Positions 6,215-19,860 of a DNA stretch of 64,000 bases are shown one piece after another. The notes beneath the pieces were generated by a model. That model was not told the DNA's origin. It saw only the letters and a program-made list of their open reading frames with translations, and did no database searches. A program made the position numbers and the translations under genes. Each line of letters begins with the position of its first letter. Positions within the stretch are counted from its first letter, which is position 1. Origin of the DNA: Lacrimispora saccharolytica (lineage in GTDB: Bacteria; Bacillota; Clostridia; Lachnospirales; Lachnospiraceae); assembly GCA_016899975.1 (NCBI GenBank), contig JACJJN010000006.1, positions 1 through 64,000 on the forward strand. Direction: 5' to 3'.

Positions 6215-6883
6215 TTACCCCATATAATCGCCGTTGTACGACACAAGAATCACATGGCTGACTCCGGACATTTCATTCAGTGTATTGAGAAATCCCGTCT
6301 CCTCATCTTTCAGCCTCACCTCATAATTCAGCTCCGTCCTGTCTCCCGTCACGCTTTTGCTTTTGAGACTCATCTTTCTGGCCCCTGCGGCGATACATTC
6401 CCGCACCTGTGTTTCCTGCTCTCCGGAACAGTGTACCACCAGAATATAAGGGGTATCCGTTTTGCTGCCTCTGGAAAAAAGGATCAGCAGAAGCCCGATA
6501 AAAATACTTCCAAAAACCGCCAGCGGGATCAGGCCTGCCGCCAGCACAATGCCTATGGCAATGCTCCAGAACAGAAACATCAGATCTGTCGGTTCCTTGA
6601 TTGCCGTTCGGAAACGCACAATCGACAGTGCGCCCACCATACCAAGGGACAGCACGACGTTGCTGACCACAGCCATGATCAGAAGCGTCGTGATCAGCGT
6701 CATGGCAATCAGGGATACTCCAAATCCGGAAGAATACATCACTCCGCTGTATGTCTGTTTATAAATAAAGAAAATATACATCCCCAAGAGAAACGCCATA
6801 CCCATGGCAATGGCAGAATCCAGCAGAGAAATACTGCCCATATTTTCCAGGAATCCGGATTTAAAAATATCCTGAAACGTCAT
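6215..6883 (-). CDS. DUF4956 membrane protein
   Basis: 222 residues. There are three or four hydrophobic segments in the first 130 residues (LLDSAIAMGMAFLLGMYIFFI; VSLIAMTLITTLLIMAVVSNV; LMFLFWSIAIGIVLAAGLIP; LAVFGSIFIGLLLILF), with the family block LGMVGALSIVRFRTAIKEP between them, then a soluble ferredoxin-like tail. Function is unproven; the family accompanies VTC polyphosphate polymerases. The ATG at 6883 was chosen over 6895 because GGAGGAAAG lies directly before it. The start overlaps the stop of a 21-codon leader ORF (ATGA), described separately. CotH follows two bases after the stop. Confidence 0.88.
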   Translation of the reverse strand: MTFQDIFKSGFLENMGSISLLDSAIAMGMAFLLGMYIFFIYKQTYSGVMYSSGFGVSLIAMTLITTLLIMAVVSNVVLSLGMVGALSIVRFRTAIKEPTDLMFLFWSIAIGIVLAAGLIPLAVFGSIFIGLLLILFSRGSKTDTPYILVVHCSGEQETQVRECIAAGARKMSLKSKSVTGDRTELNYEVRLKDEETGFLNTLNEMSGVSHVILVSYNGDYMG

Positions 6884-6958
6884 TCTTTCCTCCATTCTGA
6901 CGCACTTGCTGCGTCATCAAGGTAGATTTGGAAGTTTACTTTCAAACTTCTTCTCCTT
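6880..6958 (-). promoter_or_regulatory. Leader element with 21-codon ORF and two hairpins (copy 1)
   Basis: Between the VTC stop and the DUF4956 start lies AAAAGGAGAAG, then a TTG-started ORF (6945 to the TGA at 6880-6882) encoding a peptide with the core FQIYLDDAASASEWRK. Its TGA overlaps the ATG of DUF4956. The RNA can form TGACGCA/TGCGTCA and an imperfect TTTGAAAG/CTTCCAAA hairpin. A homologous leader stands before htrA at 39623-39704. Position inside an operon argues for post-transcriptional rather than promoter function. Whether the peptide is made is unknown. Confidence 0.55.
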
Positions 6959-6968
6959 TTGTATCCAC

Positions 6969-7661
6969 TTAATCAAATCTCCGGCACAGCGCATACTTGG
7001 AACAGGCGGACGCCTGCCTCCCCGGTACCTGCACCGCCATCTCCACGATCTCCGGGAGCATCTCATCGTACTTGACTTCCAACACAGTAAAAGGATCCAT
7101 GACCTGGATCAGACAAGAATCCTCACGAAAAAAATCCTGCGGGCTCTGCCCTGTCCTGATTCTCCGGTCCAGCGTGATTCTCACGTTTCCCGGTTCAAAG
7201 AGAAACGCTTCCCTGTCATAGCGTACCACCGTTTTGGGGCGAAGCTGCTGCCCCTGGATTTTACTGTAAAATTCCAGCAGCAGCGGCTCATCCGCTGGAG
7301 GAAGCGCCAGTTCACCCGCCAGCAGCGCCTGCGCCTGATCCCTGCTGATGCGCCGGCTTCGTTTTCCGCACATACCGCCAATCTTAAATTTCTTTTCCAG
7401 TCGGATATAACTGACATCCGTCCCATAATAACGAAGCCGGAATTTTTCCCTGCGGCTGATTCCATCCATTTTCTCCCTGAGTGCCTTGTCATAAGGCGTA
7501 TCAAAATACAGGCTGGTCACCCTGTAGCTTCCATCCGGTCCGGCGTGGCTGTCCCGTTCAAAAAGTTTCGACAGCCTTCCCGCCAGCACCAGATCCTCCA
7601 TCCGGCTGATCTGGTGCTTTTGTTCATGGCGCAGCTTCATATAGCGTTTCCCATCAGTCAT
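6969..7661 (-). CDS. VTC-domain polyphosphate polymerase
   Basis: 230 residues. The VTC tunnel fold is recognisable from basic and acidic strand motifs: RHEQKHQIS near the start, VTSLYFDTPYDKALREKMDG, RREKFRLRYYG, YIRLEKKFK, KTVVRYDREAFLF, VRITLDRRIRT and VLEVKYDEMLPEI. VTC domains make polyphosphate from ATP at a membrane. The ATG at 7661 overlaps the end of the preceding lipoprotein gene by 8 bases; an alternative ATG at 7640 would leave the genes separate. Longer upstream reading is only a frame shadow of the Asp-rich tail. The DUF4956 and CotH genes that follow are its usual companions. Confidence 0.88.
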   Translation of the reverse strand: MTDGKRYMKLRHEQKHQISRMEDLVLAGRLSKLFERDSHAGPDGSYRVTSLYFDTPYDKALREKMDGISRREKFRLRYYGTDVSYIRLEKKFKIGGMCGKRSRRISRDQAQALLAGELALPPADEPLLLEFYSKIQGQQLRPKTVVRYDREAFLFEPGNVRITLDRRIRTGQSPQDFFREDSCLIQVMDPFTVLEVKYDEMLPEIVEMAVQVPGRQASACSKYALCRRFD

Positions 7662-8766
7662 CTCCGTCGTCGTCATCGTCGTCGCCGCCATCATCATCAT
7701 AGTTGCTGCCGCCATCGTCATAGTTGCTGCTTCCATCGCTGTAATCTGTCACGCCGTCATTGTTCGGGCCATAGTCCGTATCGTCATAATTGGTCACGCC
7801 GTCGTTGTTCGGACCGTAATCCGTATCGTCGTAATTGGTCACTCCGTCATTATTCGGACCGTAATCCGTATCGTCGTAATTGGTCACTCCGTCCTTATTC
7901 GGACCGTAATCCGTATCGTCATAGTTTGTCACCCCGTCGTTGTTCGGGCCGTAGTCCGTATCATCATCTGCCGCCGGAGCCTGTGTTGCAGCTGGAGCTT
8001 CTGTCGCAGCCGGTGCCTGCGTTGCAACTGGTGCCTGGGTGGCTGCCGGTGCTTTGGTTGCCTCCGGGGCTTTCGTTGCCTCCGGGGTCTTGGTTGCAGC
8101 TGGTGTCTGGGTGGCTGCCGGAGTCTCTGTTACGGAAACGGTAGACAGATAGTCGGTGTTTCCGTCATTTTCAGGACCATAATCCGTATCGATGTAATCG
8201 GTATTTCCATCACTGTTCATGCCGTAGTCCGTATTCTTGTCATCGTTCACCGACTGATCGCCATAATCGCTGGCTCCCTCAAGATCGACTTCTCCTTTCA
8301 GGGCTGCAGAACTCAGATAGCTGTTTACCTCCGCCACCATATTTCCGATAAAGTTTTCATCCGGCATAACCGAACCTTTTTCAATCTCGAGGATGATCTT
8401 CCGTTCTTCCCCTTCAACTTCCTCTGTAAAATACCCCGCGTCGTTCATCTGTACGATCAGATTTCTCACCACATCGCTGCATTCCTTGCCAATATAGCTG
8501 TCCGCATTTTCAATCAGGGTTTTTCCGTCGTCATTGACGCCTTCTACTTTGCTGACGATTCCATTCTCATCGTAGGAAACCGCGATCTCCGGATTGACCC
8601 GTACATAGATGGTTCCCTCTTTTGGAGCGGGCGTCGCAGTGACAGTGTTTGCGGAGGCTGCCGGAGTTTCATTTCCGGAGTTTGCGCCACAGGCTGCCAG
8701 CATTCCCACACATGCCGCCATACATAATGCTGTTCCGATCGTTGCCATAAAAGTTTTTTTCCTCAT
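7654..8766 (-). CDS. Lipoprotein with RsgI-like ectodomain and acidic DY repeats
   Basis: 370 residues. A lipoprotein signal ends in LAAC (Cys26). Residues 50-165 resemble the extracellular middle domain of RsgI anti-sigma factors (VRVNPEIAVSYDENGIVSKV, then VNDDGKTLI), including an Asn58-Pro59 pair at the position where RsgI proteins are known to self-cleave. An Ala/Thr/Pro linker (about 220-268) follows, then five 15-residue repeats of DTDYGPNNDGVTNY type and an Asp-run tail. It has no transmembrane or cytosolic domain, so it cannot bind SigI directly. AAAGGAG precedes the ATG, with a SigI-like promoter upstream. It overlaps the VTC gene, suggesting shared function. Confidence 0.8.
   Translation of the reverse strand: MRKKTFMATIGTALCMAACVGMLAACGANSGNETPAASANTVTATPAPKEGTIYVRVNPEIAVSYDENGIVSKVEGVNDDGKTLIENADSYIGKECSDVVRNLIVQMNDAGYFTEEVEGEERKIILEIEKGSVMPDENFIGNMVAEVNSYLSSAALKGEVDLEGASDYGDQSVNDDKNTDYGMNSDGNTDYIDTDYGPENDGNTDYLSTVSVTETPAATQTPAATKTPEATKAPEATKAPAATQAPVATQAPAATEAPAATQAPAADDDTDYGPNNDGVTNYDDTDYGPNKDGVTNYDDTDYGPNNDGVTNYDDTDYGPNNDGVTNYDDTDYGPNNDGVTDYSDGSSNYDDGGSNYDDDGGDDDDDDGDD
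7756..7970 (-). repeat. 45-bp tandem repeats encoding acidic 15-residue units
   Basis: Five head-to-tail 45-base units inside the lipoprotein gene, some nearly identical in DNA (for example the units starting at 7801 and 7846), each encoding a variant of DTDYGPNNDGVTNYD. The high DNA identity points to recent expansion and likely copy-number variation between strains. Confidence 0.85.
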
Positions 8767-8809
8767 ATCCTTTTTCTCCTTTGGATTTATTTTTTCTTTT
8801 GATTAAGGT

Positions 8810-8838
8810 TACGAAACCAAGGTGTGAAAAATCGGGGT
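8810..8838 (-). promoter_or_regulatory. Candidate SigI promoter for the lipoprotein-VTC-DUF4956-CotH operon
   Basis: On the minus strand ACCCCG (8838-8833), a 19-base spacer and CGTA (8813-8810). Bacillus SigI promoters are known to use an ACCCCC-type -35 and a CGAA -10, and clostridial SigI promoters a CGWA -10. A matching site stands before sigI. Distance to the ATG at 8766 is about 44 bases. Confidence 0.55.
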
Positions 8839-8860: not shown

Positions 8861-8997
8861 TTTTTATTCCCGCGGGCAACGAGCCAAGCGGACATGCTTG
8901 CATGTCCATTTGGCGACTGCCGCGAGGGTCAAATACCCCGCAGCTCTGCTGCACTACAAGTTTGATGCCCCGTAGCTTGCTGCGGGGTCTTTGACTT
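8861..8997. repeat. Double-hairpin intergenic repeat (family B), copy 1
   Basis: About 137 bases nearly identical to 19725-19860 and in the same orientation. It holds two palindromes: CCCGCGGGCAACGAGCCAAG...GGCGACTGCCGCGAGGG with an inner GGACATGC-TT-GCATGTCC, and GTCAAA-ACCCCGCAGC...GCTGCGGGGT..TTGAC. It starts exactly at the rsgI stop codon, so it probably forms the 3' end of the sigI-rsgI transcript. No coding capacity was found. Confidence 0.85.
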
Positions 8998-9940
8998 AAT
9001 CGTCATCGTCGCTGCCATCATCATCATCATTATCATCATCGTCACTATCGTTGTCGCTGTAACCGGAATCGCCTTCCGGTTCCGGCGCTTCATAGTCAGA
9101 TCTCCCGTCGTCATCCGGCACCGCCGCAGGAGCCTGAGTTGGCGCTGCTGTCGGCGCCTGGGTGGGCGCTGCCGTCGGTACCTGGGTGGGCGCTGCTGTC
9201 GGCGCCTGGGTGGGCACTGCCGTCGGTGCCTGGGTGGGCGCTGCCGTCGGTGTCTGCTCTGGTGCTTCTGTCGGGGTTGGTGTGGCTGTCGGAGTCGGGG
9301 TTGCCGGAAGTGTGATGACCACCTGTATCTCTTCCTCCGTCTCCTCTTTTCTCTCTTTTTCCTCCCGGGTCAGTACCTGCACCTCCAGATTCTGAGCCTC
9401 CATATGCTCCTGCAGCGTGCGGACCGCTTCCTTTTCGGTCTCTTCCGTCCAATCCTCATCTTCCGCAGCTGCCTCCAGGACGATTTCACCGCCTTCTGAC
9501 AAAAAGCCCAGCTCCACCGCACGATCCGCCAGTTCATCCGCTACCACCTGTTCGGATCGGTTTTTATAAGCCAGATCCTCAACCAGCCGTTCCCCATCGT
9601 CATTGGCAGCATGCAGTTCCAGGACACGCCCGGAACGGCTCAGTGTCATCTGCACACCGGGATTGATCTCCATGGCAAGCGTTCCGTATGCTGTATAATC
9701 CGGCACATACATTCCAAAATAAAGTCCCGCGCTTACCAGACAGAAACACGCTGCCGCAGCGATTCCGCCGATCAGCTTCCTGTTCTGGAAGAAAGGCTCC
9801 CTGCTGTGCTCCTTCATGACAACGATTTCCGTGACGGTCTCTCCAACCTGGTATCCAAGATTTGCAGCCCGAAGGAAGCGTCCCTCGGAATCCAGCAGTA
9901 CCGCATAACCCGGGTGTACTTCGATTACCAGATATTTCAT
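8996..9940 (-). CDS. rsgI: Anti-sigma-I factor RsgI
   Basis: 314 residues. An N-terminal cytosolic RsgI domain (1-45, VIEVHPGYAVLLDSEGRFL) that binds SigI, a transmembrane helix at about 57-78, then an extracellular RsgI middle domain with MEINPGVQMTLSRSGRVLEL and AANDDGERLVEDL. Asn93-Pro94 matches the known self-cleavage pair of RsgI proteins. After a charged helix come Pro/Thr/Ala repeats (TPTATPTPTEAP, TQAPTAVP), wall-spanning in character, and a C-terminal run of Asp. Clostridial relatives often end in a carbohydrate-binding module; here there is only the acidic tail. The ATG overlaps the sigI stop (ATGA). Confidence 0.92.
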   Translation of the reverse strand: MKYLVIEVHPGYAVLLDSEGRFLRAANLGYQVGETVTEIVVMKEHSREPFFQNRKLIGGIAAAACFCLVSAGLYFGMYVPDYTAYGTLAMEINPGVQMTLSRSGRVLELHAANDDGERLVEDLAYKNRSEQVVADELADRAVELGFLSEGGEIVLEAAAEDEDWTEETEKEAVRTLQEHMEAQNLEVQVLTREEKERKEETEEEIQVVITLPATPTPTATPTPTEAPEQTPTAAPTQAPTAVPTQAPTAAPTQVPTAAPTQAPTAAPTQAPAAVPDDDGRSDYEAPEPEGDSGYSDNDSDDDDNDDDDGSDDDD

Positions 9941-10671
9941 TGTCTACCACCGCCTTTTACCGGAGCAATCTGTTCCAGATGTCCTCGTATAATCTCATAT
10001 CCATTGGTAAATGCCAGCAGGACCGCCACCAGATATTTTCTGTGGCGCTCCAGGGTTTTTCTGCTGACTCCTGACTTTTCTTCAATTTTGCTCATTGGAA
10101 GTTTTCCGGTTCTGAGCATATCCTCCAGAAGCTCCGGATGATTCACCGCGCACTCCAGAACCGAATGACACGCTTTCAGCGTTCTCTCCTGCCGGGGACA
10201 GTTTTCGGCAATTTCCGTAAATGAAAGAGAAAATCTGCCGAGCTGCCGTCCAAACTCTTCAATCTCCTCCCTTGCAGCAGTGTTGGAAATCCGCTCATGG
10301 ATCTCATCTCTTCCGTCAGAGTGCCAGTCCTGAAATTCCGTGTCGTCCTCCTCGGATACCGGCTGATTCAGCGAGATCAGGCCCCTGTGTCTCTTCTCTT
10401 TCCGATAAAAATCGATCAGCCGGTTCCGGATATTTCTTCCTGCATATTTCAGAAAATTTCCTCTTGTTCTCTCATAGGCAAGCACCGATTCGTGAAAAGC
10501 CATCATCGCAATGCTCAGTTCGTCATCCTGTCCTTCCACAGGAATGCGCTGCATAAATTTCGCCGTCTCCACCTTAATAAATCCCATATACTGGCGAATC
10601 AGCGCATCTGCCTCTTCCGTATCTTTTTTCGCCGCATATACCTGCCCGACAATCTGATGTTCCGCTCCCAT
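9937..10671 (-). CDS. sigI: RNA polymerase sigma-I factor
   Basis: 244 residues with SigI family landmarks: ADALIRQYMGFIKVETAKFM, DDELSIAMMAFHESVLAYE and GNFLKYAGRNIRNRLIDFYRKEKRH (region 2), and a C-terminal helix-turn-helix (KIEEKSGVSRKTLERHRKYL) with a long tail. SigI factors are held inactive by a membrane RsgI and released by an external signal. The start has AGGGGGAT 4 bases before the ATG and a SigI-like promoter 22 bases upstream, implying autoregulation. Its overlap with rsgI gives balanced synthesis of sigma and anti-sigma. Confidence 0.93.
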   Translation of the reverse strand: MGAEHQIVGQVYAAKKDTEEADALIRQYMGFIKVETAKFMQRIPVEGQDDELSIAMMAFHESVLAYERTRGNFLKYAGRNIRNRLIDFYRKEKRHRGLISLNQPVSEEDDTEFQDWHSDGRDEIHERISNTAAREEIEEFGRQLGRFSLSFTEIAENCPRQERTLKACHSVLECAVNHPELLEDMLRTGKLPMSKIEEKSGVSRKTLERHRKYLVAVLLAFTNGYEIIRGHLEQIAPVKGGGRQ

Positions 10672-10692
10672 AGAAATCCCCCTGTATAGGAA

Positions 10693-10720
10693 TACGTGAA
10701 TTTTCCCCGATTTCCGGGGT
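10693..10720 (-). promoter_or_regulatory. Candidate SigI promoter before sigI
   Basis: Minus strand ACCCCG (10720-10715), 18-base spacer, CGTA (10696-10693). The design matches the site at 8810-8838. A CCCCG...CGGGG hairpin overlaps it. The rest of the 309-base gap to the ATPase operon is AT-rich and holds only the terminator at 10922-10968. Confidence 0.55.
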
Positions 10721-10921
10721 AGATTGTTCCTGAAACGTGTAAAATCTCATGTTAATCCTATCAGTTTCTCCTATTCTCTTCTATCAACACAGGGTTAAAT
10801 CTATTTTAAATCCATGTAAAGCAAATTCTGGTATAAGACCTCATGAAATTAGGAACGAAGATTTCCTGATCCTGCATCGTCCACACAGTATTACGAGACT
10901 ATTTACCGATTTGATTCCATG

Positions 10922-10968
10922 AAAAAAAGACCTGTCATCGCCAATTATCTGACGGACGGGTCTTTTCT
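10922..10968 (-). terminator. Terminator of the V-ATPase operon
   Basis: Minus strand AAAAGACCCGTCCGTC pairs with GACAGGTCTTT across about 15 bases and runs into a T-rich tail (CTTTTTTTC), just past the subunit D stop. Confidence 0.85.
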
Positions 10969-10983
10969 AAAAGTAAGGATTTG

Positions 10984-19724: not shown

Positions 19725-19860
19725 TTTTTATTCCCGCGGGCAACGAGCCAAGCGGACATGCTTGCATGTCCATTTGGCGACTGCCGCGAGGGTCAAAAAC
19801 CCCGCAGCTCTGCTGCGTTACAAGTTTGATGCCCCGTAGCTTGCTGCGGGGTTTTTGACT
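19725..19860. repeat. Double-hairpin intergenic repeat (family B), copy 2
   Basis: Nearly identical to 8861-8997 over its whole length, with the same two palindromes (inner GGACATGC-TT-GCATGTCC; outer GTCAAAAACCCCGCAGC). Here it lies directly upstream of the V-ATPase operon, so if transcription starts further upstream both hairpins would be in the 5' leader. With the galA terminator it fills most of the 345-base gap 19703-20047. Confidence 0.85.

Follow-up and report, generated by a model that had tools for sequence, protein, structure and literature searches.

A SEAL-domain lipoprotein with a predicted sigma-I-type promoter in a widespread sigI-rsgI-VTC-DUF4956-cotH module of gut bacteria

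Introduction

RsgI signaling starts with self-cleavage of the anti-sigma factor, followed by loss of strand 1 and then by RseP and ClpXP (PMC12203970). The promoters read by sigma-I have a CGWA -10 element, which takes the form CGTA in the case of SigI3 (PMC10575876). In Bacillus, two proteins from the cotH gene cluster, CotB and CotG, have serine-rich, disordered repeats that are polyphosphorylated by CotH (PMC7821199). Genes resembling both systems lie together in the stretch of Lacrimispora saccharolytica DNA analysed here (contig JACJJN010000006.1, positions 1 to 64,000; 64,000 nucleotides, referred to as the window), in which a gene for a lipoprotein with an RsgI-type domain lies between sigI-rsgI and genes of the VTC, DUF4956 and CotH families. 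The set sigI-rsgI-lipoprotein-VTC-DUF4956-cotH is widespread in gut bacteria and undescribed in the open literature searched; no account of CotH with SigI in Lachnospiraceae was found there.

Results

Organization of the locus

All genes of the module are on the minus strand of the window. The sigI gene (9937..10671) was assigned to RNA polymerase sigma-I through NF006178 (E 2.5e-52) and TIGR02895 (E 2.1e-49), with both matches below the curated cut-offs. It is followed by rsgI (8996..9940), encoding the anti-sigma-I factor with RsgI_N, a transmembrane segment and RsgI_M (N93-P94); Pfam matched its RsgI_N weakly (E 3.3e-4) in addition to RsgI_M, and its tail is Ala/Pro/Thr-rich and acidic with two S/T-x-Y motifs. 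Downstream are the SEAL-family lipoprotein gene (7654..8766; 370 aa, defined by its ORF, Pfam and comparison with relatives), a VTC-domain, polyphosphate-polymerase-like gene (6969..7661; PF09359, E 9.9e-32) for which no solved relative was found by sequence, a gene for a DUF4956 membrane protein (6215..6895; PF16316, E 1.9e-8) and a gene for a CotH kinase-like protein, P0006 (4809..6212; PF08757, E 3.1e-59; 5JD9, E 1.1e-13). The reading frames of lipoprotein and VTC share 8 nt, from the VTC ATG to the lipoprotein stop, an arrangement that suggests coupled translation.

An element of 134 bp, carrying an inverted repeat of 17 nt, lies between rsgI and the lipoprotein promoter (8865-8998). About 42 sequences across the genome match it in full or in part, many of them 95-98% identical and one at 19729-19860 of the window, and on this copy pattern it is an interspersed, MITE- or REP-like repeat.

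The usual order across 99 loci was sigI-rsgI-lipoprotein-VTC-DUF4956-cotH, with the lipoprotein operon divergent from sigI in some, and functional linkage of the module genes was judged by this adjacency. CotH was present without VTC and DUF4956 in L039, L087, L118, L138 and L214. L068 and L080 showed a variant order, lipoprotein-cotH-sigI-rsgI, and also lacked VTC and DUF4956. In L215, sigI is split over two frames (10246-10974) and the locus has neither CotH nor the tail motif; decay of the whole module is possible there.

An RsgI-type domain behind a predicted lipobox

The initial annotation of this DNA had described the protein as an RsgI extracellular pattern without the transmembrane or SigI-binding parts, and both halves of that description held. 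RsgI_M (PF23750) matched residues 52-160 (8287..8613) with an E-value of 6.8e-14 and a score of 53 bits against a curated cut-off of 25.3, whereas RsgI_N, the SigI-binding domain, gave no Pfam match up to E 1. Instead of a transmembrane helix of the RsgI type, the protein begins with a signal peptide ending in the lipobox LAAC (L23-A-A-C26, with Cys26 as the lipobox cysteine; 8689..8766), a type II layout of n-region, h-region, lipobox and Cys that was recognized by sequence pattern. The lipobox is present in all but one of 108 relatives. A relative at L221:8463-9287 lacks the lipobox Cys, apparently has a signal anchor and carries SNY repeats; its gene is followed by VTC-DUF4956-cotH.

The resemblance to RsgI exceeds chance. 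The lipoprotein segment VNDDGKTLI, previously noted as parallel to ANDDGERLV of RsgI, indeed pairs with it in BLASTP (33% identity over 36 aa), and profile-profile comparison of the two proteins gave 98.9% with an E-value of 3e-17. A profile built from 14 such lipoproteins retrieved the solved RsgI chains 8T9N (E 3.7e-8) and 8HEP_B (E 0.0035), the latter starting at the Pro of the N-P pair.

AlphaFold2 models were obtained for the lipoprotein domain (pLDDT 85.6, 98-row alignment) and for the RsgI domain (pLDDT 92.6, 87-row alignment). Both open with an identical order of elements and place the N-P pair at the turn that joins strands 1 and 2. The two folds had been expected in the initial annotation to superpose; each model was compared with the same solved structures rather than with the other model, and for the lipoprotein the top six matches were all RsgI, with good matches to RsgI only. 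The best was B. subtilis RsgI 8t9n_B (Z 13.2, rmsd 2.4 Å over 107 residues), while five C. thermocellum periplasmic domains matched with Z 7.8-11.1 from model residue 12, corresponding to Pro59. A PepSY domain follows the SEAL domain in many relatives and is absent from the window copy and its close kin.

The Asn-Pro pair and cleavage

Alignment confirmed that Asn58-Pro59 (8590..8595) occupies the position of the RsgI autocleavage bond, as first proposed from the letters alone, and the solved RsgI chains agree: several from C. thermocellum have a first residue that aligns to this Pro, as autocleavage would give. The pair was kept in 108 of 108 lipoprotein relatives although most other positions vary; this set was partly chosen by the pattern VNPEI, which itself contains NP. 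It was also invariant in sets found by profile: 11 loci from the class-wide search and the 20 strong matches in Lachnospiraceae. Such conservation points to probable self-cleavage of the lipoprotein at this bond.

Cleavage is not universal in this fold: in C. thermocellum, RsgI8 is devoid of the self-cleavage motif and stays uncut (PMC12203970). This uncut example, together with the fact that the lipoprotein has no way to send an output, would suit a SEAL domain that serves only as a folded spacer, with N-P kept uncut for a tight turn between strands 1 and 2. We regard such a spacer as fairly unlikely, since Asn and Pro are both retained throughout the 108 relatives in a domain that is otherwise variable.

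A tail motif that tracks CotH and VTC genes

The remainder of the lipoprotein (7657..8271) is a predicted disordered tail consisting of an Ala/Pro/Thr linker and then DTDYGPNNDGVTNY-type repeats, in which 16 of 16 Tyr have Ser or Thr at position -2. In CotH-linked loci the same was true of 1124 of 1193 Tyr in lipoprotein tails (94%), with Ser and Thr making up 19% of residues, and of 422 of 490 Tyr (86%) in the tails of the paired RsgI proteins. Among 39 RsgI_M proteins from other loci the figure was 28 of 252 Tyr (11%), and two or more full motifs occurred in none of them. In the source genome, a search for other repeat proteins of the lipoprotein-tail kind matched only the lipoprotein gene.

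Among 95 loci with enough flanking sequence, the motif was found in 84 of 85 with CotH, VTC or DUF4956 genes and in 0 of 10 without them (Fisher 1e-12, uncorrected for kinship). Loci devoid of all three families had acidic tails in which the motif was missing, and in Mordavella (L062), where the CotH set is missing, the tail has no tyrosine at all. Two species under one genus code (L216 and L217) differ in both the motif and the CotH/VTC genes, and one genome holds a CotH-linked paralogue with the motif (L213) as well as a solitary paralogue almost without it (L218). On the best tree, five independent contrasts of the motif with the CotH/VTC genes all pointed in the same direction, three of them on supported branches; with only five contrasts a sign test is unable to reach 0.05. 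The tails of lipoprotein and RsgI from the same locus correlated weakly (T/S choice, rho 0.21, not significant; acidity, rho 0.45), therefore no residue-level co-evolution is claimed.

As a general CotH signature the motif was rejected: 20 more distant VTC-DUF4956-CotH or CotH loci without the lipoprotein have no S/T-x-Y protein nearby, and the claim is therefore limited to the lipoprotein module.

CotH as a candidate tail-modifying enzyme

In the CotH of the module, N279-x-D281, H289-N290 and W305-D306 align with the corresponding positions of solved CotH 5JD9, and among 80 module relatives at least 97% retain them. P0006 is thus a CotH-domain kinase-like protein with putative activity. Because these positions are kept and Bacillus CotH provides a precedent, CotH would be expected to modify the Ser/Thr of the S/T-x-Y repeats. 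By this analogy the lipoprotein tail is probably a CotH target, and the RsgI tail is probably modified as well. Fam20C kinases, which are distantly related to CotH, read the position +2 of their target. The module Tyr sits at +2 of the candidate Ser/Thr, which is only a hint.

The tail might alternatively be a metal-binding or wall-spanning acidic spacer while CotH acts on a polymer or another protein, in which case the association of motif and CotH would reflect lineage history only. Repeats such as NNDGVTDYND resemble, in our own reading, part of thrombospondin type-3 Ca2+ loops; the tails of CotH-less loci remain strongly acidic, such repeats are missing near the 20 generic CotH loci, and CotH-polyphosphate polymerase-DUF4956 sets also adjoin Pel polysaccharide genes (PMC7112168). 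However, Pfam gave no calcium-repeat match, the rule that the tails follow is Ser or Thr two residues before Tyr and not acidity, and motif and CotH/VTC genes switch together in the five contrasts, including L216/L217 and L213/L218. We therefore consider the acidic spacer doubtful.

A predicted sigma-I-type promoter

On the minus strand, a predicted sigma-I-type promoter precedes the lipoprotein gene (8807..8838; ACCCC-N20-CGTA) and another precedes sigI (10690..10720; ACCCC-N19-CGTA), both recognized by pattern. CCCC-N14-22-CGTA was found upstream of the lipoprotein in 92 of 99 loci, compared with about 1 in shuffled sequences, and the spacer was nearly always 19-20; upstream of sigI it was found in 63 of 86 loci. 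The consensus is gACCCCgnTTTt...cCGTAttCTat. The seven loci without the lipoprotein promoter are four SigI-less Eggerthellaceae and three others, and isolated lipoprotein genes with no sigI nearby (L218, L219 and L220) still have it. The extended pattern matches four places in the source genome and is intergenic only at the lipoprotein and sigI; the other two matches, one in a sortase-like gene, lie inside genes and were not accepted as further sigma-I sites. The promoter pattern makes the lipoprotein a predicted member of the SigI regulon, and on this evidence sigma-I output would include the lipoprotein and, probably, the genes downstream of it.

Loci without SigI and the relation to RsgI

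Such a promoter would also supply the wiring for feedback, in which sigma-I-made lipoprotein competes with RsgI for a shared ligand, or joins RsgI in a complex, through the domain and tail that they have in common, and so damps or tunes the response. The shared domain, the similar tails and the constant adjacency of sigI-rsgI to the lipoprotein in the 20 strong Lachnospiraceae matches are in keeping with the decoy or sensor complex that the initial annotation had envisaged. But four Eggerthellaceae loci from Slackia and relatives (L065, L079, L083 and L115) keep lipoprotein-VTC-DUF4956-cotH in genomes, all draft or metagenome assemblies, where sigI was not found, and in three of the four a second RsgI_M protein is of the ECF-anti-sigma type and lacks the tail motif. 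Lipoprotein and CotH persist in G400 (Eggerthellaceae) and G401 (Lachnospiraceae), draft or metagenome assemblies in which no other RsgI_M protein was found, and the tail motif tracks CotH/VTC genes even among loci that all have sigI-rsgI. Since the lipoprotein operon persists without SigI and its tail follows the CotH/VTC genes, acting as a decoy or co-sensor cannot be its general function. We consider this feedback role improbable overall and unlikely as the sole role of the lipoprotein; it could apply where sigI-rsgI is present.

A tree of 116 RsgI_M domains placed 42 lipoproteins on one side of a branch with SH-aLRT 99.9, apart from both the paired RsgI and other RsgI_M proteins; the alignment has few columns and finer forks were not used. 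The supposition that the protein is a locally detached ectodomain of the neighboring RsgI was rejected on account of this single clade. As judged from sequence, the lipoproteins are an old and separate clade, present in several Firmicutes families and Eggerthellaceae. Record titles assign relatives to Lachnospiraceae, Oscillospiraceae, Erysipelotrichaceae, Tissierellia and Eggerthellaceae, and about 20 of the 397 genomes of Lachnospiraceae have the lipoprotein, as do 10 of some 390 further genomes sampled evenly from the class.

Within the genus of the window's source, one further genome was searched (G118); it matched neither RsgI_M nor CotH, so the locus is patchy even at this level. The source genome has a third RsgI_M protein, apparently of the ECF-anti-sigma type and with a frame or start that looks irregular (L003; G000:C147:153053-153373). 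At L053:5994-7190, a lipoprotein-like RsgI_M protein carries many CxxCxG zinc-finger-like repeats, apparently a further domain partner of RsgI_M outside anti-sigma factors.

Discussion

From the computed domain, fold, lipobox, N-P conservation, promoter, gene linkage and tail motif with its tracking of CotH/VTC genes, we infer cleavage, modification, shedding and the part of RsgI as a sensing copy. The proposed product is a sigma-I-induced surface lipoprotein, probably self-cutting, whose tail is modified by CotH while RsgI acts as the sensing copy, a reading for which we see an even balance of being right or wrong. The lipoprotein would comprise a lipid anchor, a short linker, the SEAL domain and a lengthy disordered tail built of [S/T]-x-Y repeats, and its gene would head an effector operon, lipoprotein-VTC-DUF4956-CotH, usually under sigma-I/RsgI control. 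CotH, perhaps with VTC/DUF4956, would most likely modify the tail repeats at Ser/Thr on the outer side of the membrane, in the manner of Bacillus CotH on the repeats of CotB/CotG. After the cut, the tail-bearing part would be held non-covalently to the lipid anchor and could be shed. The cut lipoprotein cannot signal inward, therefore a sheddable tail-bearing ectodomain is its likely effect. RsgI has the same self-cutting domain and tail motif and would therefore be the sensing copy, reporting the same condition: modification, engagement or pulling of such tails may cause strand 1 to leave the RsgI domain, and sigma-I would be freed.

A stronger version, which we put forward tentatively and think rather unlikely, is an extracytoplasmic write-and-read circuit in which sigma-I drives production of the SEAL lipoprotein and of a CotH kinase, CotH phosphorylates S/T-x-Y on both the lipoprotein and RsgI, and the state of the RsgI tail sets the separation of the SEAL domain and the release of sigma-I.

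The S/T-x-Y tail, the separate sigma-I-type promoter, the linked VTC, DUF4956 and CotH genes and the wide lipoprotein family go beyond the initial annotation. The RsgI autocleavage domain is thus used outside anti-sigma factors, in a lipoprotein family widespread in gut Firmicutes and Eggerthellaceae. CotH, VTC and DUF4956, which are poorly understood secreted or membrane families, gain a link to a regulator and a promoter as well as to a substrate motif that can be tested. One locus would also contain two candidate CotH substrates outside spore coats, one of them the sensor that controls the locus.

Among known systems, the RsgI periplasmic/SEAL domain (PF23750; 8T9N, 8HDJ, 8HEP, 8HER and 8U9O) shares its fold and N-P position with the lipoprotein, which differs from RsgI in lacking RsgI_N and the TM segment, in its lipid anchor and separate clade, in the PepSY domain that often comes next and in its occurrence without SigI in Eggerthellaceae. 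The SigI/RsgI systems of B. subtilis and C. thermocellum have in common with the module the sigI-rsgI pair, a CGWA-type -10 element and the RsgI autocleavage domain. Unlike them, the module has an extra SEAL lipoprotein and CotH effector genes, and its RsgI tail carries S/T-x-Y motifs where theirs carry carbohydrate-binding modules. The CotH-polyphosphate polymerase-DUF4956 accessory set of Gram-positive pel clusters places the same three families side by side, and the accessible part of that account mentions no lipoprotein, SigI or RsgI, all of which are present in the window module (PMC7112168). In Bacillus CotB/CotG-CotH, as in the module, the gene of a CotH-fold kinase stands beside those of low-complexity Ser/Thr repeat proteins (PMC7821199). 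The repeats of CotB/CotG are rich in Ser/Lys/Arg and the proteins are expressed in the spore coat, whereas those of the module are acidic, follow S/T-x-Y and belong to a lipoprotein with a SEAL domain and a predicted sigma-I promoter.
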